This document shows positions 23,740 to 46,452 of a stretch of DNA of 64,000 nucleotides, piece after piece (the stretch's first letter is position 1; every line of letters begins with the position of its first letter). The notes under the pieces are model-generated. The model was not told the DNA's origin. It saw nothing but the letters and a program-made list of their open reading frames with translations, and ran no database searches. A program made the position numbers and the translations under genes. This DNA is from an uncultured Flavobacteriaceae bacterium (GTDB lineage: Bacteria > Bacteroidota > Bacteroidia > Flavobacteriales > Flavobacteriaceae): NCBI GenBank assembly GCA_947501845.1, contig CANMXP010000001.1, positions 310,001-374,000 on the forward strand. The letters are read 5' to 3'.

Positions 23740-24103
23740 AAATTAATTTAATTTTAAATGCTTTCAGGCGAGAGGGCTAAATATATAAAAAAAAACATGA
23801 CCGCTATATATTTTTCATATATATATCATATAAGACTTTACACATTTCTTTTAAAAGAAATGTATTTTATTCTCGTTTTTAGAAGTTTCTATGAAAAACA
23901 TATTCATATTATAATGTGTTGATAAACAATATTTTCATATATTTACGTAAGTATTTTTTTATAAAAATATACACTTCCTAAATAATTATCATAATAGCTT
24001 GAAAGGTTGCTATACTATTCGTTTAGCAAAAATAGTAATTAGTATCAGGGCTGTCCTTTGATAGCAACTAGTGCATGATGATAAATCAAAACACAAATAT
24101 ATT

Positions 24104-25810
24104 ATGAGTAATTCTTACAAACCCGTTGTTAGAGCTGTTAGCGGTGATTATTATGGAGCTGCTTTAGTTGGTACCTATTCTGTAATTATAGGCTGGACTT
24201 TTGATGACAAAAATTTACGCCAAGGACTTCATGGCTTTGGCATTAAACGTATTTCATTAGATCCCGAAACAGACGAAATTATGAGCATTAAATGGCTTGG
24301 AGGACATAAACGTTTTGAGGTCACTGATACAGGAAAAATTGAAGATGTGAGTTCTTTAGAAGCACCTTTTCAAAGGTTTCGTTGGAACGAATATTCGCTT
24401 AACCCTAAACGTGCTTACATTTATGAAGTTTACCCTATGCGAGGAACGCCAAAAAAGTTAACACGTGATGAAGCTCCATTAATTTTTAAAATTAGACCAT
24501 CACAAGAAGTTGAAGACAAACTTGGGGTCTACGTCAATCGTGGTGTAACATCATCTATGGCCTATCTAAGCAGGTTTAAAAATAGGGCTCCAAAAGATAT
24601 AGGAAAAAAAGCTTACCAATGGTTATCTCGTGGTTTAAAGGAATCGCTACTTAATTTTATTTCAGCGGCTAAATCGGGGGACACATTGCATTGTATTATT
24701 TATGAATTTCATGATAATGAAGTTGCCAAAGCTTTCTTAGCAGCTGAAACTAAAGGTGTTAACGTAGAGATTATTCACGATGCCAAAGCTGGTAAGCATT
24801 CTACAGAAAAAACCGAGAAAGTTATTCATGACAACCATATGTCACACTTAACAATAGCTAGAGATATGGTGAATATAAGCCATAATAAAGTGGTGATACT
24901 TTTAAGAAATAATAAAGCAAAAAAAGTATGGACGGCTTCAGCTAATTTTAGTGAGAATGCCTTTAATTTTCAAACAAATGCAGCGATCACAATTGATGAT
25001 GTTAGCGTGGCAAAAAATTACGAGGTCTCTTTCCAAATCTTAAAACCCAACCCGACAAAGAAAGATACCAAAATTGCAAATAGAAAACATATGGATACTA
25101 TTAATGCAATTCAAGGTAGATATGCTGAAAAAACCTTCTTCTCTCCTATTTCGAAAAAAGACATCTTAATTACAGCTTGCGATTTGATCAAAAATGCAAA
25201 ATCTATGGTACTCATTAGCGCGCCTTTTGGAATGGATAAAAAATTAGTTGAGGCTATGGCAGCTAATGATGATTCTATTATAGAATATGGTATTGTGAAT
25301 AGTACAGCCAAAAAGAGAATTAAAGGCTTAAATCATAAGAATACTAGATTTTTCACACCAAGCCGCTTACAAACATATATGGGACGTTCTTGGGATGCTA
25401 AAGCCTTTGGTGCACATAAAATTCATGCAAAAGTTATTATAATTGATCCTTACGGAAACCATCCAAAAGTGCTTTTTGGTTCGGCTAATTTCTCTAAAGC
25501 ATCATGCTCAGACAATGACGAAAATGCTATGCTTATAGTCAACAACAAACGTTTAGCCGCCATTATGACTGTTGAATTTATGCGTATGTACGATCATTAT
25601 AAATCACGATATTATATTAAACGAACTGAAGGTCAAAATAAAAAAATTAAAGAGAAGAACAAAGAGCGTATTTTACAAGGTAAAGAACCAAAGCCTTTAA
25701 AGACGATCCCTACGCATCTATCAGCTGATTTTTCATGGAGTAGAACGACTTTTAACTCTACACCTTATAGCCATAAGTTTCAAGATCGAATTGCTTTTTC
25801 AGGCAACTAA
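24104..25810 (+). CDS. Phospholipase D-like protein with two HKD motifs
   Basis: 568 aa from the ATG at 24104 (MSNSYKP); an in-frame GTG at 24071 would add 11 unlikely residues. After an N-terminal beta domain of about 150 residues come two PLD repeats. HKD motif 1 is HNKVVILL at about residue 260, followed by VWTASANFS; its aspartate is replaced by L. HKD motif 2 is HAKVIIID at 441, followed by VLFGSANFS, and is complete. PLD-fold enzymes hydrolyse phosphodiesters via the two histidines. There is no signal peptide, so it acts in the cytoplasm, with nucleic acid or lipid as possible targets. It ends at a strong terminator. Confidence 0.8.
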   Translation: MSNSYKPVVRAVSGDYYGAALVGTYSVIIGWTFDDKNLRQGLHGFGIKRISLDPETDEIMSIKWLGGHKRFEVTDTGKIEDVSSLEAPFQRFRWNEYSLNPKRAYIYEVYPMRGTPKKLTRDEAPLIFKIRPSQEVEDKLGVYVNRGVTSSMAYLSRFKNRAPKDIGKKAYQWLSRGLKESLLNFISAAKSGDTLHCIIYEFHDNEVAKAFLAAETKGVNVEIIHDAKAGKHSTEKTEKVIHDNHMSHLTIARDMVNISHNKVVILLRNNKAKKVWTASANFSENAFNFQTNAAITIDDVSVAKNYEVSFQILKPNPTKKDTKIANRKHMDTINAIQGRYAEKTFFSPISKKDILITACDLIKNAKSMVLISAPFGMDKKLVEAMAANDDSIIEYGIVNSTAKKRIKGLNHKNTRFFTPSRLQTYMGRSWDAKAFGAHKIHAKVIIIDPYGNHPKVLFGSANFSKASCSDNDENAMLIVNNKRLAAIMTVEFMRMYDHYKSRYYIKRTEGQNKKIKEKNKERILQGKEPKPLKTIPTHLSADFSWSRTTFNSTPYSHKFQDRIAFSGN

Positions 25811-27201: not shown

Positions 27202-28731
27202 TTAAGAATGATTTATTTTGAAGTTTTTGCAAAAGGAGATGCTTGGTGCAAAAAAATATTCGCCGCCTCGTACCTTTACCAGATCCTGATAACTAAAATC
27301 AATGACGACCTTTTTTCCTTCTATTTGAAGCTGCCATTTTTTTGCTACTTTGTCTGGGTTTGCATTTTGCCATCCAGTAATCGGGTCTGTACCAGTTCCT
27401 TCATTAAGAAAGTTTGGGTTATCTGACCAAGCACACTGCATGACTAAAAATTGTTGTTCAATATCACTTTGACATGAGAGAAAAAGTAATCCAGCATCTG
27501 TCCACTCAGAAGATGGTGACATATCTTTAGAACCATAGCTTATGCCTCTACGGGCAATACGATGATTACGTTCACTGCGCATTGGAACTCGGCTTTTCCT
27601 ATTGGTATCACCTCTTGGGTTCGTTTTTCGAATATGTGCCTGAAATGGACACCCTAAACCCTCTGTATCGTTATCATAATTAAAATTATTTAACAAGGGT
27701 TTTGTGGTTTCCCTTGAGTTTGTTGTTACTAAAGTGCCATCTTTAAACCTCCCAAATGCAAGAGCACCGGCAAGTTCTTGATCTACCTCACCTTCAACCG
27801 CATTAGAAATTAATGAGGCAAACTGTTTTGTCTGGTCATTAAAACCTTTTATATTTTGCTGCATTTTACGATATACGAAGTAGGATCCGAAACTATTTAC
27901 TGCAGAACGCCCTCCTGGGTCATTAACAGCAATTAGACCAAAAGATGCCGACGGATCGTACAGATCTGTTCCTTCTTTTTCCTCCCAATTCTTAAAATCG
28001 GATTTAAAAAATGTAGGATTACTAATGCCGTCTGCAAATCCAAAATGTTCTACAACCTTTCCCTTTTCGTTTCTTAATGTATAACCTTTTTCAATAGATA
28101 TAATAGTGGCTGTTCCTTCTATTTCGGCCTTGATCTTTTCTACAGCTTTGTCTAAATAGTTTTCACTCTTTTTAGATTCTAAACTTTCTCCACCGTAAGC
28201 AAGTATTAATAATGCATCAATGCTTTGTTTAAAAGGTAGTTCCCAATTATTAGGATTATCATTCAAGGGATTGATAGTACGCTTGTGCAACCCATCTGGT
28301 CCTGTATCATATCTAAACTCAAAGTCTTTCATTCCTGCTCGAAAGGCCTTATCATCTGGAATATTTTTATCTTCTATTCCAAGAGCCTTAAAGCCAGAAT
28401 AACTTAACATAAAACCAGTAAATAGATGTTCTCTTCCTGTATCCTTAAAATCTAGTGATGTTTTATGCTGTTCTAAAGCAGACGTTAGTCTTAATCCTAT
28501 TTTACCTACCCATTCCCTATTGCGGACAGAATCACCAATAAATTGTAAAAACAAATGCCTGGAGTGGGAACGCCCATGACTCTTTAAAATATTACCCTGA
28601 AGATCTTCAAAAACAACAGATAAATCTGGATCATTTATATCAAGCTGCGATTGACTTAATCTAATGGCAGGTTGATTAAGATCTGAGGTGGTATTTTGGT
28701 CTTGGTTAATTTTGGTAGATTCTATTTTCAC
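27202..28731 (-). CDS. DyP-type (dye-decolorizing) haem peroxidase
   Basis: 509 aa, no signal peptide. The DyP signature GFADG lies at residues 231-235 (FGFADGISNP), carrying the distal Asp. The proximal haem-ligand region RNHRIARRGISYG has His at about residue 390, and the distal Arg is probably in the second beta-alpha domain. The first 40 residues look disordered. DyP enzymes use hydrogen peroxide to oxidise dyes, phenols and other aromatics. Many DyPs are encapsulin cargo, but no encapsulin gene is nearby and the C-terminus (FCKNFKINHS) lacks a clear loading peptide. Cotranscribed with SRPBCC and cupin genes, and 169 bp downstream of the Het-C operon. Confidence 0.85.
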   Translation of the reverse strand: MKIESTKINQDQNTTSDLNQPAIRLSQSQLDINDPDLSVVFEDLQGNILKSHGRSHSRHLFLQFIGDSVRNREWVGKIGLRLTSALEQHKTSLDFKDTGREHLFTGFMLSYSGFKALGIEDKNIPDDKAFRAGMKDFEFRYDTGPDGLHKRTINPLNDNPNNWELPFKQSIDALLILAYGGESLESKKSENYLDKAVEKIKAEIEGTATIISIEKGYTLRNEKGKVVEHFGFADGISNPTFFKSDFKNWEEKEGTDLYDPSASFGLIAVNDPGGRSAVNSFGSYFVYRKMQQNIKGFNDQTKQFASLISNAVEGEVDQELAGALAFGRFKDGTLVTTNSRETTKPLLNNFNYDNDTEGLGCPFQAHIRKTNPRGDTNRKSRVPMRSERNHRIARRGISYGSKDMSPSSEWTDAGLLFLSCQSDIEQQFLVMQCAWSDNPNFLNEGTGTDPITGWQNANPDKVAKKWQLQIEGKKVVIDFSYQDLVKVRGGEYFFAPSISFCKNFKINHS

Positions 28732-28900: not shown

Positions 28901-31150
28901 TTAACTATTCAAAGGATTCAAAACATTATCTCCCCAAGGTGCTGGATCTACATCTTTTTCTAATTTGATATACAATTTTTCTAATTTTTCTTTCTCTCGC
29001 TCTCTTTCTTCTGCATTTCGGTTACGCATTCTATCGATTATGGCCTGTAAATTATTGGTTATAAAACCTATCTGAGGTTTGTCATTAATATCTTCATAAT
29101 CTGGAATTTTCCCTGTAGACCTAAATGTTTCCAACACTTCGCGTTCCCACATATTAGGATTTATATGAGGGAACCTAAGCAGATGACGTATGATGGAAGA
29201 CCATCTTATTCCTCTATTTGCTCCGCCGTTTTGTATTTCTGTGGTCATAATAGTAGCAACAATAGTTGAGGCCATGGTTGCCAGAGCTCTTGCTTCTTCA
29301 AATAAGGGCTGTGATTTTGGAGTATCTTTTGCCAAAACTGAATGGTTACCTACCGTTTCACCTGATGCACCATTATCTGAAGCTTTATTTAAAATTTCTC
29401 TTTTACCACGCCTGTCCAATTCAACGCTTCTTTTTATACTAATATCAAAATCTTTTTGGGCCATGGTCAAAAATTGTAAAAGAAACCTTCCTACGCCTCC
29501 AACAGCATCAGAGAGCGAAGATTGAAATTGTTTATCCATTTTCAAATCAATTTCAAAAGCTTTTCGAAATGCTTCTTCTGCCTGATCGTTTAAATAGCCC
29601 CGTTCTTTAAGCTTAGTAATACCATCTTCATATTTACCTTCCTCTAATTGAACACGATGCTCTCTCTGTCTAGCAGCAAGAATATCTGCATCTTCTACCA
29701 TCTCCCTGCGATATGTTTCATTAAAAAGTGCCTGCATTAAAACTAACTCCGATTCAGATATTGGTGTATTAAACGGCAACTCATCCTGAGCTATATTTTC
29801 TGGGTTCCCTGGTGTATTGGCTCGTTTTATATACTTATCTATATCCTCTACAACAAATTCTAAATTACCAATAGCACCTATCATAGTATGAAACATGTCT
29901 TTTTCTCCAAAACCTCCTGTATATATTAAATCATACGCTGGTTTCGAATCATCAGTACTTTGATCGGACTTCGATTTAAAAAGTGGATAACGTAGTCTTC
30001 TATAAAGTTTTCTAAGCCATCTCGTTTTACCACCTACTATTTCTCTTATTCTTCTATTTTCTTCGGCATCTTCTGAATAATTATGAGGACTAGAAAAGTC
30101 ATATGCTTTACTATAGCCTCCTTCACTATCTGGTGGATTATCTACTTTATAATTTCGATAGTTATCCAAAGCGTGCTCGGCAAACCAATTTTCAAAACTT
30201 TCTACGGACATACTGGAACGGGTTGCTTTTAACTCATTCCAAAGTCTTAACTCTACATAATTAGAATGAAAAAAATAATCTTCAACAGCATGTAAAATAT
30301 GCCCCATTCTTGCCAATACATCATGCCTATTTCTGTTTTGTGATGATGTACGTTTAAATTTTTTCCAATCGTATTCGATCAATATAAGCTCTTCTACAAT
30401 ATATTTTAGCTGTTCTTCCAAATAAATGATTAAGCCTCTGCGTCCTTTTTGATATCTGCGCTTGCGCTGTCTAGCAATTCCAGATTCTGTATAGGGTGGA
30501 AAATCTACATGCTCATGAGGGTAATATTGCGTGTAAGATCTTGATTCATCATTATGACCACCCCCTTTAAAAACCCTATCAATTTCTGCAGAAGCTATGT
30601 TTATTCCAGAAAACATACCTGGTAGCATGGTATCTATCCTCGCTCTTTTAGGGATATCGTCTGCAAATATAATATGTGTAATCCCCAAACAAAGCTGTTC
30701 GAAAAATTGAGCCAGTTTTCCATATCGTCTGTTCTTGGGTGTTGCTTTTCCCATTAAGACATCCATCCACTGTGTCGCTTTACCAAAACCTATTGCTGCA
30801 ATTGGAAACAGAATATATTCTGTTATAAGAAGACTGGACACAGCTAGTGCAGATTTTGCTGCACCACTTTTATTTTTTTTATCAATAAAATCTATGATTG
30901 ATGGAATAAGTGCCACACCCGCTAAAACAATATTGGTTCCAATAACATATGGGTTTTCCCTAAATGCAGCTCTAGCTTGATTAAATATTGTTTTTTTTGC
31001 AGAAAGATGTGCATATGGGTCTCTAAATTGAGAAATATCGGTTAAAAAATTACCGAGCTCCATAAAGGCATAATCTTCATCACCTCTAATATCACGAATC
31101 TTTTCTTGGTAATATTTATAGATCTCTCCATGCCTTTTTATTTCCCCCAT
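28901..31150 (-). CDS. Het-C-like membrane protein
   Basis: 749 aa. Hydrophobic segments at about residues 55-75 (VIGTNIVLAGVALIPSIIDFI) and 95-120 (LAVSSLLITEYILFPIAAIGFG) suggest a membrane hairpin. The region DTMLPGMFSGINIASAEIDR (about 168-187) and RMGHILHAVEDYFFHSNYVEL (about 280-300) carries the His/Asp-rich pattern that I associate with bacterial proteins related to fungal Het-C (heterokaryon incompatibility, PF07217), possibly a phospholipase C-like metal site. The C-terminal half is charged and helical. It is the last gene of a quartet with a coiled-coil protein, a conserved 594-aa protein and a Trypco1-like protein, which suggests a conflict or membrane-damage role (inference). Confidence 0.65.
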   Translation of the reverse strand: MGEIKRHGEIYKYYQEKIRDIRGDEDYAFMELGNFLTDISQFRDPYAHLSAKKTIFNQARAAFRENPYVIGTNIVLAGVALIPSIIDFIDKKNKSGAAKSALAVSSLLITEYILFPIAAIGFGKATQWMDVLMGKATPKNRRYGKLAQFFEQLCLGITHIIFADDIPKRARIDTMLPGMFSGINIASAEIDRVFKGGGHNDESRSYTQYYPHEHVDFPPYTESGIARQRKRRYQKGRRGLIIYLEEQLKYIVEELILIEYDWKKFKRTSSQNRNRHDVLARMGHILHAVEDYFFHSNYVELRLWNELKATRSSMSVESFENWFAEHALDNYRNYKVDNPPDSEGGYSKAYDFSSPHNYSEDAEENRRIREIVGGKTRWLRKLYRRLRYPLFKSKSDQSTDDSKPAYDLIYTGGFGEKDMFHTMIGAIGNLEFVVEDIDKYIKRANTPGNPENIAQDELPFNTPISESELVLMQALFNETYRREMVEDADILAARQREHRVQLEEGKYEDGITKLKERGYLNDQAEEAFRKAFEIDLKMDKQFQSSLSDAVGGVGRFLLQFLTMAQKDFDISIKRSVELDRRGKREILNKASDNGASGETVGNHSVLAKDTPKSQPLFEEARALATMASTIVATIMTTEIQNGGANRGIRWSSIIRHLLRFPHINPNMWEREVLETFRSTGKIPDYEDINDKPQIGFITNNLQAIIDRMRNRNAEEREREKEKLEKLYIKLEKDVDPAPWGDNVLNPLNS

Positions 31151-31168
31151 AACTAAATGTGTTTACAC

Positions 31169-31498
31169 TTATGAAGTTGGCACCATTGAAGTTAAATCGC
31201 CTGTTCCTCCTTCGGCCCATTTAATTTTAACATGAAAATTTGCCTCATCTGTTCCCTGCGTTACGGCAAAACGCTCTTGACCATTTACTGCTTTTATACC
31301 AAATGTTATTTCAAACTCTTGTGGTTTATGATTTGGAGACATGGCGTTTATTTCTTGAGATGAAATAATAGCAATATCTTTAATAACCCCCATAGAACCA
31401 GATAAATTGCTTCCAGGAGAAATACGATCATCTCCTCCAGGACTTATCTCAACTAATATGGGCTCATTATCACTGTAATATTGTTTATATGTTGACAT
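31169..31498 (-). CDS. Trypco1 (CU044_2847 family)-like small protein
   Basis: 109 aa. The pattern PILVEI near the start, a helix (MGVIKDIAIISSQEINAM), then PQEFEITFGIKAVNGQERFAVTQGTDEANFHVKIKWA is that of trypsin-co-occurring domain 1, known from predicted bacterial conflict systems where it accompanies trypsin-like proteases. No protease is encoded in this window, so the partner here would be the Het-C-like and 594-aa proteins. It lies 18 bp before the Het-C gene and 21 bp after the 594-aa gene. Assignment is by remembered motif. Confidence 0.6.
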   Translation of the reverse strand: MSTYKQYYSDNEPILVEISPGGDDRISPGSNLSGSMGVIKDIAIISSQEINAMSPNHKPQEFEITFGIKAVNGQERFAVTQGTDEANFHVKIKWAEGGTGDLTSMVPTS

Positions 31499-31519
31499 GT
31501 AGTTTCATTTAAAATTAAA

Positions 31520-33304
31520 TTAAGGGGCTTCATCTTCTGCTAAATAAATGGGTAATTCATCTGTCGTTGTATCCAGCCATACAAGACTGGTAGGTACTTT
31601 CATGAGCCAAGTGGAAGGATCATCTTTGCTTATTTCTACATCTCTATCCATATCATCGACAGTAATACTTGCTAATTCTTCAACCAGAGAACGATCAAAA
31701 TGTGTATCAAATGCAAATGGTACACTACTATCCCAATCGTATCTACCTGTAGCTTGATAAAATAATGTAGCATAATTAAATACAGGGTTAACTGGGATTA
31801 AAACTCTTGCCGCTCCTGATTTTAAAAATTTTTCAAATAAAGGATCAGTATCCTCTATAGCTAGTGTGTCTAACCATTTACCTCTACGTCCCCAGTAATA
31901 GGGGAAAAATTCATAGGTCATATTTTTCCAATCAAACGCCTTTTCAAAAAATTGGATTTTATCACTTTCGGCAAAAGTTCTAGAAAGTGCTATATCTGGA
32001 TATCCATTACTACCTGCAAAAACTCGGTTTAAATCATTAAATCTATAAAATAGACCTCTTGCACCATACATAAACAAAGAGATACAGCTTTTTTTAAGCT
32101 CTTGGCGTTCTACCTCTCTATTAATTACTGGGTTTCTTCCTGTAATTTGTACGCCATCTTGGATCTCTGCCGCTGCTAACTTTTCTTCATAGTCTAAAAC
32201 TTGTTTTTGAAAAGCATTCATAATAGCATTATAGGTTTCTATTTGCCATTTTTCAAAAGCTTCAGTCGTTAATTGGCAATAGATATTGACATGGAGAAGG
32301 AAATTCTCAACTTTTTTACCATAAACACCAATTGGTATTTTATCGGTATGAGATGCTATTGAAAGTGCATTCCAATTCATTTTAAAATAGGAACCATCAT
32401 AATACCACCAATCTGCTTGTGCAGTATGGCCTCCTGTATAAAAATAACCATCTGGAATTTTGAGGTCGTCGATTGAAATAGACCATGCTTGTTCTTTTTG
32501 AAAAGTTCTTGCAATAACTCTTGATAAGGTAATACTATGAGGTGGCGGCGGACTAACCCCTTGAACATTATATTTTTCAATCTCTGCCAAATAATTTGTA
32601 CGACTTAAACCACTTGCGGTTATAGTTGGTTTTATGGGCTCTTCTGGCAATATTAAGTTTTCTAGTTTATATTGTTGGGCATGAATAAAGAATGCTGCAG
32701 GTTCTGGTACTGTAAACTCATACATTAAGCGCTTACCATAATTTACAACTTTAGCTCTATAGTATTTATCTACCCATCTGTAAATCCCTGAAATATGTTC
32801 TTCTCCTAGAGAATTATCGAAACCATGCTCATTTATTTCTTCGGTTTCATGCAAAGAACGGCTGGTTCTTTCTTCTCTTGTTTTTTCTATAATTCGAGAT
32901 AAAGAACGCTCTGAAATATCTTTGGCGTAATTCACAGCATTTTTGTTAGATTCTACTGTAGAATTGGATGAAGCAAATTTTGCATAAGCACTTGCCTCAA
33001 CAGGTCCATAACTTACAGAAACATCAACTCCTGCTTTAAAGGAAGAGTCTGAACGAATTGTTTTTTGTGATTCTTTTTGAAGCTCAAACCGTTCTGTACT
33101 CTGTAAATCTTTTAAGTTTTCTTCGCTAAGATCTGAAGAGGTAAAAATAATATCTTCATTTTGATTTAACTGCCTATGCTTTCTATTCCTTTTTTCACTT
33201 TTAAGCACATTTTCAATATGAGCAATTTCTCCTGCTTCATAATTTACTAATTTTTGCTTGACCACTTGAAGGTCGCCTATAAATGGTTTTATTCGAGAAG
33301 TCAT
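31520..33304 (-). CDS. Conserved large protein of the Het-C operon, unknown function
   Basis: 594 aa, no signal peptide. It starts with FIGDLQVVKQKLVNYEAGEIAHIENVLKSEKRNRKHR, a well-conserved motif that I recall from proteins of unknown function in several phyla. A SYGPVEASAYAKFASSNS beta region and a helical arm with paired charges (ISERSLSRIIEKTREERTSRSLHETEEINEHGFDN) follow, then HISGIYRWVDKYYRAKVVNYGKRLMYEFTVPEPAAFF. The C-terminal half is mixed alpha/beta (WWYYDGSYFKMNWN; FFEKAFDWKNMTYEFFPYYWGRRGKW). It follows the coiled-coil gene with a 1-bp gap, so they are translationally coupled and may form a complex. Confidence 0.6.
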   Translation of the reverse strand: MTSRIKPFIGDLQVVKQKLVNYEAGEIAHIENVLKSEKRNRKHRQLNQNEDIIFTSSDLSEENLKDLQSTERFELQKESQKTIRSDSSFKAGVDVSVSYGPVEASAYAKFASSNSTVESNKNAVNYAKDISERSLSRIIEKTREERTSRSLHETEEINEHGFDNSLGEEHISGIYRWVDKYYRAKVVNYGKRLMYEFTVPEPAAFFIHAQQYKLENLILPEEPIKPTITASGLSRTNYLAEIEKYNVQGVSPPPPHSITLSRVIARTFQKEQAWSISIDDLKIPDGYFYTGGHTAQADWWYYDGSYFKMNWNALSIASHTDKIPIGVYGKKVENFLLHVNIYCQLTTEAFEKWQIETYNAIMNAFQKQVLDYEEKLAAAEIQDGVQITGRNPVINREVERQELKKSCISLFMYGARGLFYRFNDLNRVFAGSNGYPDIALSRTFAESDKIQFFEKAFDWKNMTYEFFPYYWGRRGKWLDTLAIEDTDPLFEKFLKSGAARVLIPVNPVFNYATLFYQATGRYDWDSSVPFAFDTHFDRSLVEELASITVDDMDRDVEISKDDPSTWLMKVPTSLVWLDTTTDELPIYLAEDEAP

Positions 33305-33305
33305 C

Positions 33306-34559
33306 TTATTTTAAATTTTTAATTTCGTTAATATCTGATTCTGAAAGTTTTCTTTTCACCTTTACAAAAACTTTTCCTTTAGGGATGATCCTTTCTATAG
33401 TCATTAGTTTTTCCAATTCTGCCGTTTTTTTTGCTATTTCATTTTCTAATTTTGATACAACCTCAGGCGATGTGGTTAGCTCTAAGTCTATTTTGTTTCT
33501 AGATAAAACCTTTTTGGTATTCTTTAACTTTATTTCGCTCATTTTTAGCATCCAAGACACCTGCTCTGAGTTTTTTGATGGCGGCGATGCAAACAATGAG
33601 CCTTTTTTTAAATTGGATGCATCTAACGTACCAAAATTTGAAGCACTAAAAGGAACGTTGTCTGAAGTGTTTTGGGTGTTGGTTTCTGATGTTTTTTTGC
33701 TTTCTGACCTTAAATTTTTAAATTCTTTGTCAACATATTTTTGATAATTAACAAGCGATTGATTGAGAGAATCAATGGAAGCTTGTACATTAGCCAAAGC
33801 CTTGTCTTCACTTTTTAAATCATCACATTTAACATCGCCTTTTATCTGCGTTTTTAATCTAGCAGTAAATATTTCTTCTACTTCGTTTTTAGCAAGGTTT
33901 AATTTTTCAATTTCTTTTCTTTTAAGATGAATTTCTTTTATTCTGGATAAATAAGGGTTATCATTATCTTTAGTTTTATCAATTTCTTTTGAATCATCTT
34001 CATCTTTGGTAAAAAGTTCCTTTGGAATGATTGGTGTTAACTTATTATAATTGTTTACCAGTTCAATTTTATCATTTGCAATCTGTTCTGAATTAATACC
34101 TTCCCATAATCTTAAAAGCTTAATCCACCTAACAATAACATCTCTATCTTCTGGTGATTCATGACTTAAAAGGTTTGCATAAAAGCTATCCCAAATTTGA
34201 TCTTTAAGGATTAAGAAATCCTTATTAATAATTTTAATATCTAATCCAATTTCTTCTACTAACTTTTCCTTAAACACCTTTAAATCGTTGGCATTATTTA
34301 AATTAATAGCACTTTTTATTAATTTTTCGATATTATCCAGATTGGACTCATAAGCAGCCCAAGTTCTTGAATTCTTGAAGTAAGTATTTGATGACTGATA
34401 GGCTTTTGCTAACTTTACTTTTTCTTTGAAGTTATGCGATTTTGAAAGCTTTTCTCTAAGCACAGACCTTATTCCTGTTAAATCATATTTTGGATTGATT
34501 CCAGGAACTTTTTGAGGCGGTCGAATAGAAACAAACTTAAAGGTATTCTCCGTTTTCAT
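33306..34559 (-). CDS. Coiled-coil protein, first gene of the Het-C operon
   Basis: 417 aa. A short beta-like N-terminus (FKFVSIRPPQKVPG) is followed by helical, highly charged sequence, with likely coiled coils at about residues 225-305 (RIKEIHLKRKEIEKLNLAKNEVEEIF...) and 355-400 (VVSKLENEIAKKTAELEKLMTIER). No signal peptide and no enzyme motif. It is separated by one base from the 594-aa gene downstream and has motif site B 86 nt upstream. A scaffold or structural partner is the simplest guess. Confidence 0.55.
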   Translation of the reverse strand: MKTENTFKFVSIRPPQKVPGINPKYDLTGIRSVLREKLSKSHNFKEKVKLAKAYQSSNTYFKNSRTWAAYESNLDNIEKLIKSAINLNNANDLKVFKEKLVEEIGLDIKIINKDFLILKDQIWDSFYANLLSHESPEDRDVIVRWIKLLRLWEGINSEQIANDKIELVNNYNKLTPIIPKELFTKDEDDSKEIDKTKDNDNPYLSRIKEIHLKRKEIEKLNLAKNEVEEIFTARLKTQIKGDVKCDDLKSEDKALANVQASIDSLNQSLVNYQKYVDKEFKNLRSESKKTSETNTQNTSDNVPFSASNFGTLDASNLKKGSLFASPPSKNSEQVSWMLKMSEIKLKNTKKVLSRNKIDLELTTSPEVVSKLENEIAKKTAELEKLMTIERIIPKGKVFVKVKRKLSESDINEIKNLK

Positions 34560-34731: not shown

Positions 34732-35757
34732 CTATTCATTAAAAAGACTTTGAATTTCAGAATTAGAAAGAGCTCTGTTATAAAGCCTTAAATCGTCCAT
34801 GCGTCCAGTAACAAAATTTTGATTGGCACTGTAAGGATCTGTGCCTATGTAAAGTTCATGTTGGGTTTGTGAAATGCCTGAATTACTGATACTTTTTGAT
34901 GATTCCTCTACTCCATCGATATAAATTTTAAGCGTATTACCATCAAAAGTCCCCACTAAATGATACCAAATATTAGCAGTTAGCGGTTGTGTTGTATCTA
35001 AACATTCTTGGCAAAGGCTTTGTGGACAAGTATCTGGCTCTATACACAATTCGACAATACCTCCATTATATAGCCACATTCCATACCTTGAATGTCCGCC
35101 ATCTGCGGGATTTGTTTTCTCTATAAGAGTAAAAAACGAATTATTTTGCTGCTCCTGATAGTAAAACCAAAAAGCGATTGTTAGTTCTTTATCTAAACTT
35201 ATAGCATTACTATGCACTATTTTTATATTGCTTTTTGAATCTGCCGAGAAGGCTCCTGATGCATTTTCGACATCAAACCGATCTGCTGCATACATAAAAT
35301 TAATAGGCTCTATAGAGTTATTATTTTCACTTTTGTCGACCACACTATTATCAAAATCAATGCGTAATACATAATCCTCAGGAATTGTACCGCTTGTTTG
35401 TTCCTTAGAAACTTCAATATATCCTTTTTTTATTTCAACAACTTCATCATCAGTAGATTTTACTTTTAAACTTACATCATAAATTCCTGTGTTTTTGTAA
35501 ACTATAACAGGGGATTCATTAGTAGATATAGCAGGATCTCCACCAGGGAAAGCCCATTCTCTGGATATTATTTTGCCTTTGGACAAGTCCTTAAATTTTA
35601 TACTATTATTAATTTTAATTTTTTGGACATCCGAATCAAAATCAGCTATAAGTTCCTCTACATCCTCATTCTCCTCTTTAATAGTATTTGAAGAATCATT
35701 TTTGCTACAAGAACATAGTATTATAAGACATAAAAAATAAGGTTTCAAAATTTTCAT
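34732..35757 (-). CDS. PKD plus LamG-domain lipoprotein
   Basis: 341 aa from the ATG at 35757; an upstream in-frame ATG at 35772 would add 5 residues before the signal. The signal and lipobox are ILKPYFLCLIILCSCSKND. A PKD-like domain (about 35-115) contains INNSIKFKDLSKGKIISREWAFPGGDPA...YKNTGIYDVSLKVKS. A concanavalin-A-like LamG domain (about 150-340) follows, with LRIDFDNSVVDKSENNN, LTIAFWFYYQE, WYHLVGTFDGNTLKIYIDG and GRMDDLRLYNRALSNSEIQSLF. It is a surface or periplasmic lipoprotein likely to bind glycans or proteins. It stands alone. Confidence 0.8.
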   Translation of the reverse strand: MKILKPYFLCLIILCSCSKNDSSNTIKEENEDVEELIADFDSDVQKIKINNSIKFKDLSKGKIISREWAFPGGDPAISTNESPVIVYKNTGIYDVSLKVKSTDDEVVEIKKGYIEVSKEQTSGTIPEDYVLRIDFDNSVVDKSENNNSIEPINFMYAADRFDVENASGAFSADSKSNIKIVHSNAISLDKELTIAFWFYYQEQQNNSFFTLIEKTNPADGGHSRYGMWLYNGGIVELCIEPDTCPQSLCQECLDTTQPLTANIWYHLVGTFDGNTLKIYIDGVEESSKSISNSGISQTQHELYIGTDPYSANQNFVTGRMDDLRLYNRALSNSEIQSLFNE

Positions 35758-36007
35758 ATTTGGATTGGTCATAAAAAAGTTCGATTTAGCTATGTCGAAA
35801 TAAAATATTGAGCCTTACTTTTCTGTAATAACAATGTAAAAACTTCAAATATTTTTTACATCTCGAAAAGCCTCAAAGGTGTAATAGCATTTGAAAAACA
35901 CTTGAAAGATTAATCATATGCTATAAATAAGAAATTTTATAAATATTTGATTCTGATTTTTAGATATTCTAATAGTAAATTATTACATTAGTATTAAATA
36001 AAAAACT

Positions 36008-43836: not shown

Positions 43837-45066
43837 TTATTTTGGGCTATTTGGACACCTACTTATACTGGTACCATAATAACGATACGTATTGCATTCG
43901 TCTATTGTAGGTGCTTTGCCTTCCTGGAATAGTAAAATAATATCGGATCCCCCAAACAAGAAATAACCAAACTCTTCACCTTTGGCAATTTCTCTTTTTT
44001 CTGTTGCAGTCATGTGCACACCAGATACCTGACACATACCTACAGGAACTACACCTACAATCCCCATATTGCCATATTCTGGCTTGTTGGCATCAATAGT
44101 AATAATACCTCTGGACTGATTGAATTCGTATCCAGTTTCTGGTGGCGCTGGTGAATCGGAATTATCTGGAGCATCAAATTGGTTTTTGTCATTAATGTTA
44201 ACCTCTAAATAAGTCAATCCATTAACCGCTCGACATTCATCAACAATTCCCGATACTGGGGCATGAAATCTGTGGTATGAATACGGTCCTAAAAAGTAAT
44301 GAACAAACGTACCATTAGCAAACTTGTCGGCATGTGGACTTCCTTCTAATAATTTAGCAATATTGCCTATAACATGTGTTTTCTTTAAAACAGTATTTGT
44401 AATATTAGAATGGGCATCTATTTTGTACATCTTTCTATAAGTACAGTCTGCAGGCGCTACCGCCACTGTGTTATCGTTTGGTGCGTCTATTGGACGTAAT
44501 CCAGGATTAAGTTCTCGTGCAAAAAACTGATTAAAAGTTAACCATCCACTTGGGCTATTTGGTTTTCCGTTCACTAATGAATCTTCTATTCTATAATATG
44601 GTGCATACTCTTTAAAAGACCTCCAAATATCATCATTGAAAGATTCTGGTGTATTTAGAAAATCACCCCATAGGTTAGCATAGTCTACCAGCCATTGTTT
44701 AAAGCCATCAATGTTTTGTACTATAGTATTAGCGTTAGGCCCAACCTTTTGATCGATCAGAAAATAAAAATGACACAAACAATCGTATACTTCTTGCGAA
44801 TAACCTGTATCTGGGTCTTGCCAACCTTTATTACCACTTTGGTGTGGTATCCAACGACTAAATTTCCTGATATAGCTTATCCATTCATCTACAGTTGTTG
44901 GCCAATCCAACACATCGTATAATTGTTTGTCCAACTTACTATTGGCATAACTTTCGGCCTTATTAATAGATTCCACTAATAATTCTGAAAGAGTTGGGTT
45001 GCTCTTTAGCCATTTTTCTACATAGTCAATGGCATCATTAGTACTTGTAAACGCGGTTGTTTTCAT
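43837..45066 (-). CDS. PsiD/phosphatidylserine decarboxylase-like enzyme, copy 2
   Basis: 409 aa. The N-terminal 170 residues are a helical extension of the kind joined to PSD-fold enzymes in fungal PsiD-type aromatic amino acid decarboxylases (WGDFLNTPESFNDDIWRSF, WLTFNQFFARELNPGLRPID). The catalytic domain has YSYHRFHAPVSGIVDE and GGS at about residues 372-374, where Ser374 is the site of self-cleavage that creates the pyruvoyl group (EFGYFLFGGSDIILLF). It is therefore a candidate small-molecule decarboxylase rather than a lipid enzyme, which is typically near 300 aa or smaller. It follows its paralogue by 12 bp. Confidence 0.8.
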   Translation of the reverse strand: MKTTAFTSTNDAIDYVEKWLKSNPTLSELLVESINKAESYANSKLDKQLYDVLDWPTTVDEWISYIRKFSRWIPHQSGNKGWQDPDTGYSQEVYDCLCHFYFLIDQKVGPNANTIVQNIDGFKQWLVDYANLWGDFLNTPESFNDDIWRSFKEYAPYYRIEDSLVNGKPNSPSGWLTFNQFFARELNPGLRPIDAPNDNTVAVAPADCTYRKMYKIDAHSNITNTVLKKTHVIGNIAKLLEGSPHADKFANGTFVHYFLGPYSYHRFHAPVSGIVDECRAVNGLTYLEVNINDKNQFDAPDNSDSPAPPETGYEFNQSRGIITIDANKPEYGNMGIVGVVPVGMCQVSGVHMTATEKREIAKGEEFGYFLFGGSDIILLFQEGKAPTIDECNTYRYYGTSISRCPNSPK

Positions 45067-45078
45067 AATATAAATTGT

Positions 45079-46452
45079 TTAATTGGTTAAGTGGGTTTTA
45101 ATTTTTGGTGATGTATTTGCTATAGCAACTTGAGCTCTTACACGAACATAAGGACCATTATCGGAGTTTATATCTGGGTTAGGGTTTACAACTGTGAATT
45201 GTTTTATAGCTCCTTTTTGGAAAACCAAACATAAGCTTGAGCCTCCATAACTAAACGTTCCTAGTTCTTCGCCTTTTTTAACATAATCCCCTACCTTCAC
45301 TTCCATATTTATGGATGAAATTTCGGTAATACCAATAGGCATAACAGCCACCAATCCTATTTTTGGATCTTCGTGTTTAATAATGATAAGCCCTCTGGTA
45401 TTTACATTAGCTTCATAGCCTTGCGAATAGGTTCCTGCTGTTGGATCCCAACCTTCTACAGGTAATTCGCTAAACATATAGCCGTTTATAACGCGTGCCT
45501 CAACAACTTTTCCTGTTATTGGTGCTCTCCATCTATGATAATCATGACCGCTTAAAAATGTTTGCAGCACATCTCCGCCTTTAAACACTTCTGTGTATGG
45601 AGACCCTTCTAGCATATTTTTTAAGGAATAATTCTGGCTTTTAGTTTCAAAATTGTCCGAAAGTTTAACATTTCGAGCTACTCTATAAATCGTACCGTCA
45701 TTAGCTGAAACGATTACAGCATCATTATTTGGTCCATCTAAAGGGCGGCATAGAAGAATTATTTGGCGGTGGAAATAATCGTTAAAAGATTTAAACCCCC
45801 AATGTTTAGGGTCTTTAATTTTTGTTTCTTCAGTTACAAACTCATCTAAATTATTAGCAATTACTGATGCTGGGGATAACCACCCATCTGGCTGCGTAGT
45901 AACAACACTTAGTGTTTCGGGACTATCCAGAAAATCACACCAAGCTTGTAAAATTTTCCGTAAAGCATCATTAAATGCCTGGTTTTTAAAAACAATCCAT
46001 CCAGATGGAGTAGCCATCATGTATACAAATAGTCCAGACATAGGAAAAGCTGAATGGCTTACTTCTGGTTGAAATTTTGGAGCGTGATTTAAGATATAGT
46101 TCATCGCCACAAAAAGGTCATCTAATGATTTAATGGCATATCTTACATCGGGTTCGTACTTTTTATGAATTACGAGCCCTTCTTGAATCATTTTGTTAAC
46201 TTGACGCTCTAATTCCTTATTCTTAGCCAACATAGCCTTCATCTCTAAAATTGAAGGTGCCATAGTATAAGTAACTCCAGCGGTTTCCTTTTCTTTATAA
46301 GAGACTTCAACCAGATCACTTAACCATTTACCGATATGTGTTATATCTTTTGGCAAATAACCAGCTATAACACCAAATCGTCTTTGGTATTGTGTTTTTG
46401 TTTGTTCGACATGTTTTGAGGCATCAAATTTTACTGAATCTACGGTTTCCAT
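45079..46452 (-). CDS. PsiD/phosphatidylserine decarboxylase-like enzyme, copy 1
   Basis: 457 aa, paralogous to the downstream gene but clearly diverged. The helical N-terminus includes WCDFLDSPETLSVVTTQPDGWLSPASV and WGFKSFNDYFHRQI, the family's GFKSxDDFFxR-type signature. The catalytic domain has HDYHRWRAPITGKVVEAR and GTFSYGGSSLCLVF, with Ser405 of GGS as the predicted processing serine. As both copies keep processing and His residues, both may be active. The true substrate could be an aromatic amino acid or phosphatidylserine; the N-terminal extension favours the former (inference). Confidence 0.8.
   Translation of the reverse strand: METVDSVKFDASKHVEQTKTQYQRRFGVIAGYLPKDITHIGKWLSDLVEVSYKEKETAGVTYTMAPSILEMKAMLAKNKELERQVNKMIQEGLVIHKKYEPDVRYAIKSLDDLFVAMNYILNHAPKFQPEVSHSAFPMSGLFVYMMATPSGWIVFKNQAFNDALRKILQAWCDFLDSPETLSVVTTQPDGWLSPASVIANNLDEFVTEETKIKDPKHWGFKSFNDYFHRQIILLCRPLDGPNNDAVIVSANDGTIYRVARNVKLSDNFETKSQNYSLKNMLEGSPYTEVFKGGDVLQTFLSGHDYHRWRAPITGKVVEARVINGYMFSELPVEGWDPTAGTYSQGYEANVNTRGLIIIKHEDPKIGLVAVMPIGITEISSINMEVKVGDYVKKGEELGTFSYGGSSLCLVFQKGAIKQFTVVNPNPDINSDNGPYVRVRAQVAIANTSPKIKTHLTN

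Follow-up and report, generated by a model that had tools for sequence, protein, structure and literature searches.

The locus examined here raised the question of whether four adjoining genes, the last of them for a Het-C-like protein, constitute a closed cell-killing or self/non-self module, as had been predicted originally from the nucleotide sequence, or belong to a system of wider occurrence. The genes lie in a 64,000-nucleotide stretch of contig CANMXP010000001.1 (positions 310,001 to 374,000) from an uncultured Flavobacteriaceae bacterium (assembly GCA_947501845.1). This stretch is called the window, and its own coordinates are used. The preferred reading, to which a probability of roughly 0.6 was assigned, is that of a polymorphic-toxin-like system: genes 1 and 2 would encode a hub of an undescribed family, gene 4 a Het-C effector, and gene 3 a Trypco1 accessory of split hubs. 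The four open reading frames (ORFs) are as follows.

33306..34559, minus strand: P1 (gene 1), 417 amino acids; separated N-terminal half of the hub, with an FxFVxxRPP start
31520..33304, minus strand: P2 (gene 2), 594 amino acids; hub core
31169..31498, minus strand: P3 (gene 3), 109 amino acids; member of the Trypco1 / CU044_2847 family and putative split-hub adaptor
28901..31150, minus strand: P4 (gene 4), 749 amino acids; putative Het-C effector, predicted hydrolase of the Zn-phospholipase-C / S1-P1 type

The intergenic gaps of 1, 21 and 18 bp that had been reported for these genes agree with the ORF coordinates. All four genes recur in the same order, at 77–91% identity, in another genome of this genus (evidently that of Flavivirga algicola; locus L042), and the order is therefore not a product of chance. 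The hub core was present in two of 12 genomes of the genus, the window's own included.

P1 and P2 as halves of one hub

The relatives of P2 were mostly ORFs of about 950–1250 residues, the last 590 or so of which correspond to the P2 core; in alignment A1, P2 was 25–37% identical to 18 distant relatives. N-terminal extensions of fused hubs, 101 in all, were made into a profile, which matched residues 2–386 of P1 (E = 2.4e-30; search against one sequence). P1 as the sole query retrieved the fused hub of L079 from among 1609 ORFs (E = 1.8e-8). Because of these two matches, P1 and P2 are regarded not as a scaffold and its partner, as had been proposed, but as the halves of one hub of about 1000 residues that is usually fused. 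The identity of the hub and the homology of its split and fused forms are thereby established at the level of sequence.

Neither half had a family above cut-off in Pfam or NCBIfam (the best sub-cut-off Pfam E values were 0.031 for P1 and 0.0039 for P2), and no PHROGs match was found for either at E ≤ 0.01. At the same threshold, none of the four proteins, P1 and P2 included, had a PADLOC match, and the fused hubs of L047 and L051 contained no Pfam domain. A crude hydropathy rule for signal peptides was positive for two of 92 hub ORFs, whose start codons had been set mechanically. In the open-licence literature of PubMed Central (PMC), the hub accession was uncited (one accession was tried), and Het-C and Trypco1 never occurred together in one paper; Trypco1 by itself occurred in two. 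The family appears to be unnamed, though it is seemingly widespread in bacteria and archaea.

Occurrence and sampling

Of 395 genomes in the phylum of the window, 16 (its own included) contain the hub core, which was also detected in 14 plasmid records, a haloarchaeon and actinomycetes among them, and in four viral contigs. A scan of genome contigs yielded at least 506 stretches that encode hub relatives. The best 80 of these included sequences from Bacteroidetes, proteobacteria, bacilli, actinomycetes, Chloroflexota, Verrucomicrobia, Acidobacteria, a cyanobacterium, a myxobacterium, candidate phyla and three archaea, the taxa being partly interpreted from record titles. The locus survey comprised these 80 stretches together with eight plasmid and four viral loci, and neighbours were taken on the strand of the hub. 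Since the best 80 of 506 were kept, the sampled loci are biased toward close relatives. ORFs were defined as the longest open frames, so their starts are uncertain in GC-rich loci.

Interchangeable partners beside the hub

In 63 of 91 loci the hub was followed, at a distance of no more than 60 bp, by the start of a same-strand ORF of at least 300 residues. Two control intervals, slightly unlike each other, gave counts of 16 of 91 (downstream of the partner) and 17 of 92 (upstream of the hub). The set of 91 partner proteins, six of which were added by hand from other positions (L035, L043, L044, L047, L050 and L056; two on the opposite strand), fell into 31 clusters. Among the 85 that were covered by the Pfam tally, the families found were patatin (12), M23 peptidase (4), PT-TG, i.e. 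pre-toxin TG (4), LodA (3), Het-C (3), PAD, an arginine deiminase (2), and phospholipase D (1). Some partners are ordinary enzymes, namely PPK2, LodA and a sub-cut-off PhoD. A further 46 neighbours, hand-picked from 74 listed (7 P1 genes were omitted, and the rest by no fixed rule), contained no shown family more than twice; the repeated ones were patatin and FAD-binding families, the latter presumably representing genes that adjoin LodA in L065 and L072.

A tree of 93 hub cores was built by a quick method and contained 23 open branches. Seventy-nine rows were labelled with 17 partner types, several by hand (L087, L092, L106 and the window). On this tree the partner type changes at least 36 times, a count made without a shuffled-label comparison. 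Sister groups with unlike partners were joined at values of 98–100 in the Shimodaira–Hasegawa-like approximate likelihood-ratio test (SH-aLRT), among them L117 (PT-TG) with three Het-C hubs, L048 (PT-TG) with L057 (arginine deiminase), and L077 (patatin) with L083 (PT-TG). These comparisons of sequence and gene order demonstrate the swapping of partners beside a conserved hub.

One partner family of about 361 residues (L034, L068, L089 and others; 13 loci, 12 of them aligned in A5) had no profile match. It contains an invariant His127 (FSHG-like) and Cys208 (WGC-like), which are reminiscent of caspase-type dyads.

Toxin hallmarks in related loci

Displaced toxin-tip cassettes were located behind the hub partner in a Chryseobacterium plasmid locus (L037, 10179–14461) and in a viral contig (L125, 13613–19934). 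There, three short downstream frames open with 52–99 residues that resemble the interior of the large partner (59–90% identity) and then diverge; a fourth frame, L037_11, shows no more than distant relatedness along most of its sequence. Among the large partners, those of L037, L125 and L112 could be aligned with one another only up to residues 568–581 of 713, 526–539 of 744 and 618–622 of 861, respectively. Matches above Pfam cut-offs identify one of the displaced tips as an ADP-ribosyltransferase; the main tip of L125 has a sub-cut-off resemblance to Tox-MPTase4 (metallopeptidase toxin 4). A pre-toxin TG domain was present in the partner of L117. Orphan or displaced cassettes are a hallmark of polymorphic toxins, and by analogy the arrangement in L037 and L125 is that of their orphan cassettes, a term not found in PMC3482391. 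Variable tips and displaced cassettes on a conserved base were thus found in these two loci; none were seen in the window.

Swapped enzymatic tips, the PT-TG domain and displaced tips with a repeated junction are what the hub relatives share with polymorphic toxin systems, and the likeness lies in the mode of evolution. The hub itself differs in being a separate gene of an unnamed family, apparently outside all families of the libraries used, and no immunity gene was recognised beside Het-C in the window; small genes do follow some partners in other loci.

The Het-C protein

P4 matched Het-C (PF07217) with E = 1.3e-6 and 27.7 bits against a cut-off of 21, over residues 265–304 only. Nine of the 91 partner proteins clustered with it, including its close relative in L042; Het-C assignments beyond the three of 85 named by Pfam rest on this clustering. 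The His/Asp-rich site noticed originally consists of H7, D38, H214xD216, H287xxxD291xxxH295 and N297xxE300, all of which are invariant in the seven aligned Het-C partners (alignment A3; two rows are near-identical). The membrane hairpin of the same prediction corresponds to two hydrophobic stretches.

30251..30292, minus strand: motifs HxxxDxxxH and NxxE, part of the predicted metal site; P4 residues 287–300, invariant in alignment A3
30791..30949, minus strand: predicted hydrophobic hairpin; P4 residues ~68–120, with 19-residue hydropathy maxima starting at 68 and 102

The passages of PMC3482391 that deal with Tox-HET-C give its motifs as H, [DE], HxD, HxxxDxxxH, Nxx[DE] and [ST]G, and its authors relate it there to Zn phospholipase C and S1-P1 nuclease. 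P4 shares the H, D, HxD, HxxxDxxxH and NxxE motifs. Whereas Tox-HET-C is listed in those passages with delivery by type II and type VI secretion systems (T2SS, T6SS) and Photorhabdus virulence cassettes (PVC), P4 is a separate protein beside a hub and has a hydrophobic hairpin of its own. P4 is thus probably the effector, a predicted metal-dependent phospholipase or phosphodiesterase.

Het-C partners occupy six separate places on the hub tree. Elsewhere, three other Het-C places in the 395 genomes of the phylum (L133, L134 and L138) adjoin VgrG-like genes, and one of these is in a Pfam-confirmed T6SS cluster. L133 is in the genome of the window itself (contig C12, 8527–11910) and encodes a second Het-C protein, a PAAR-Het-C-LysM protein of 1127 residues. 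Its T6SS cluster includes TssD (Hcp), a VgrG-like protein, a VipA-like protein (below cut-off) and a ClpB/ClpV-like ATPase, and a lipoprotein-like gene comes after Het-C. No match to PAAR, VgrG or Hcp was found in P1–P4 or in the 14 window proteins scanned; unlinked T6SS effectors exist. The T6SS Het-C proteins of L133, L134 and L138, and those in the relevant portions of PMC6838775 and PMC13055248, have the same effector domain as P4, but they are PAAR/VgrG fusions or adjoin VgrG-like genes, whereas P4 adjoins the hub and no T6SS genes were seen there.

The Trypco1 protein and split hubs

P3 matched Trypco1 (PF19493) with E = 1e-7 and 32.9 bits against a cut-off of 24.6, and also NF041216 (CU044_2847 family; E = 3.6e-8). 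Profile searches thus bore out both family identities that had been proposed for genes 3 and 4. A Trypco1-like gene stood directly after the hub core in all eight split-hub loci (the window, L042, L043, L044, L045, L046, L053 and L054) and after the hub in none of 85 others, where the best match had E = 0.19. As the search model was built from L042, L045, L046 and L054, the independent tests are L043, L044, L053 and the Pfam match of the window. Two pairs among these loci, the window with L042 and L043 with L044, are closely related, which leaves about six lineages of split hubs. On the hub tree the split form is a single change, its eight members forming a clade at SH-aLRT 100 (with a warning on two long branches inside it); L073, which has a short hub ORF, was scored as not split. 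The linkage of Trypco1 to split hubs is shown by this comparison of gene neighbourhoods.

The window and L042 are the only two of the eight split loci with Het-C. In L043, L044, L053 and L054, proteins of the PT-TG cluster lie nearby (three on the opposite strand); L045 has a 357-residue gene without family assignment, and L046 has no clear partner. Trypco1 is lacking beside the seven Het-C partners that go with fused hubs, and beside one more. P3 is possibly an accessory of the split-hub branch, a chaperone or adaptor. In the pertinent parts of PMC7159879 and PMC10907252, Trypco1 occurs beside the trypsin-like peptidases of nucleoside triphosphate (NTP)-dependent conflict systems and is termed an adapter. 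The ternary systems described there (VMAP/MoxR; PMC7159879) have a Trypco1 protein in common with this locus, but no Pfam match to trypsin, MoxR or vWA was found among the 14 window proteins scanned, 11 of them from 24.1–37.7 kb; the protease was thus missing here, as had been pointed out.

Structure of the hub and the question of a pore

Structure prediction was carried out on the fused homologue L047 (63 aligned rows; predicted local distance difference test, pLDDT, 74.5). The model has a helical, P1-like N-terminal part, followed by strands 387–415, 418–443, 518–543 and 551–581 around a low-confidence insertion, a beta sandwich (643–737), a long helix and a C-terminal domain. At 470–489, within the insertion, hydrophobic/polar alternation was 0.47 and 0.41, with 1.2–1.4 charges per ten residues (descriptive values, with no significance test), compared to 3.7–5.4 at 420–469 and 510–539 and 2.1–2.8 at 490–509. 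The strongest alternation lies outside the insertion, in the bin at 900. The corresponding element of P2 is the following.

32975..33040, minus strand: candidate membrane-inserting beta hairpin; P2 residues 89–110, amphipathic, with a GP turn and low charge within a charged stem

In the L047 model, the equivalent segment has low confidence and was not built as a hairpin. A Foldseek search with this model returned no row at E ≤ 0.001; among the top rows, iota toxin Ib and CDTb recurred with E values of 0.08–0.8 and low TM-scores. The hub sequence had no match among PDB chains. Lectins were weakly matched by one sandwich domain, and phage tail proteins by the model, in no case significantly. Long strands around a disordered, amphipathic insertion suggest a pore, but given these E values and TM-scores, and a hairpin that was not built, the pore is treated as a hypothesis only. 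In binary toxins with a beta-barrel pore (of the iota toxin Ib and CDTb type), the two-gene logic of pore and enzyme is alike; the hub differs in its non-significant fold matches, the lack of a PDB sequence match and of an evident signal peptide, and a far wider range of enzymes.

Interpretation and alternatives

Our best inference is that the system serves to attack other cells, the hub being a carrier that would bring the effector enzyme to a target cell or let it in. Hub and effector would be co-produced, as the pairing of their genes suggests, and would leave the cell, perhaps by lysis. The C-terminal beta domains of the hub might then bind the target surface and the amphipathic hairpin might insert as an oligomeric pore, steps for which the structural indications are weak; to judge from the enzyme families, the effector would attack the target membrane or periplasm. 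A tentative and more far-reaching proposal, which we consider doubtful, is that P1/P2 would be the first example of a hitherto unrecognised, self-contained machine for toxin delivery in bacteria and archaea. This would be a beta-barrel translocon, resembling those of binary toxins, that lets in many unrelated enzymes and has a split, Trypco1-assisted branch to which this locus belongs.

The same proteins could instead act inside the cell as an abortive-infection or conflict system, the hub sensing infection, Trypco1 relaying and the enzyme damaging the cell's own membrane. Lipases are common abortive-infection effectors, signal peptides are not evident, and the company that Trypco1 keeps in NTP-dependent systems points the same way. 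On the other hand, M23 peptidase and LodA partners would make little sense in the cytoplasm, and both PT-TG and displaced toxin tips typify weapons that are directed at other cells. The scanned window proteins lack MoxR, vWA and trypsin, PADLOC matched none of the four proteins, and no recurrent defence family (one SIR2) was evident in the 46 neighbours, for which 25 of 35 families were shown. An intracellular role is therefore considered unlikely. Less probable still is a structural assembly (a surface fibre, shell or enzyme scaffold) that organises enzymes and is not a toxin: the ordinary-enzyme partners and the weak lectin and phage-tail matches would suit it, but partners of toxin and pre-toxin families with displaced tips, and the patchy occurrence in the phylum, would not.

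The self-contained Het-C/Trypco1 quartet of the original prediction was judged very improbable. Two genomes of a single genus share its gene order, but the unit is a hub with an interchangeable effector; Trypco1 is tied to split hubs, no Het-C was found in the other six split loci, and the Het-C partners of fused hubs do without Trypco1. The conflict or toxin character that had been proposed was retained. Self-killing or self/non-self recognition is not preferred to an attack on other cells, because relatives carry polymorphic-toxin hallmarks and the three other Het-C places found in the 395 genomes adjoin VgrG-like genes.

Neighbouring genes

Upstream of P1, a PKD/LamG lipoprotein gene (34732–35772) is missing in F. 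algicola, where two genes of 421 and 69 residues come after Het-C in its place (L042, 14581–16216); the difference represents small flank exchanges adjoining the operon. A phospholipase-D-like protein (24071–25810) has two PLD stretches that resemble DISARM DrmC; other DISARM genes were absent from the few neighbours scanned. A DyP-type peroxidase (27202–28731) adjoins a polyketide-cyclase-like gene and a cupin gene, and occurs in three of 12 genomes of the genus. An adjacent pair of phosphatidylserine decarboxylase genes (43837–46452), one with a PSDC domain, is syntenic in F. algicola.

Implications

If the preferred reading as a polymorphic-toxin-like system is true, the hub family would bring a new class into microbial warfare, and many unannotated proteins of about 1000 residues would gain a testable role. 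The unknown partner families would offer a route to new effector enzymes, and the hub loci would provide a context for Trypco1 outside NTP-driven conflict systems.

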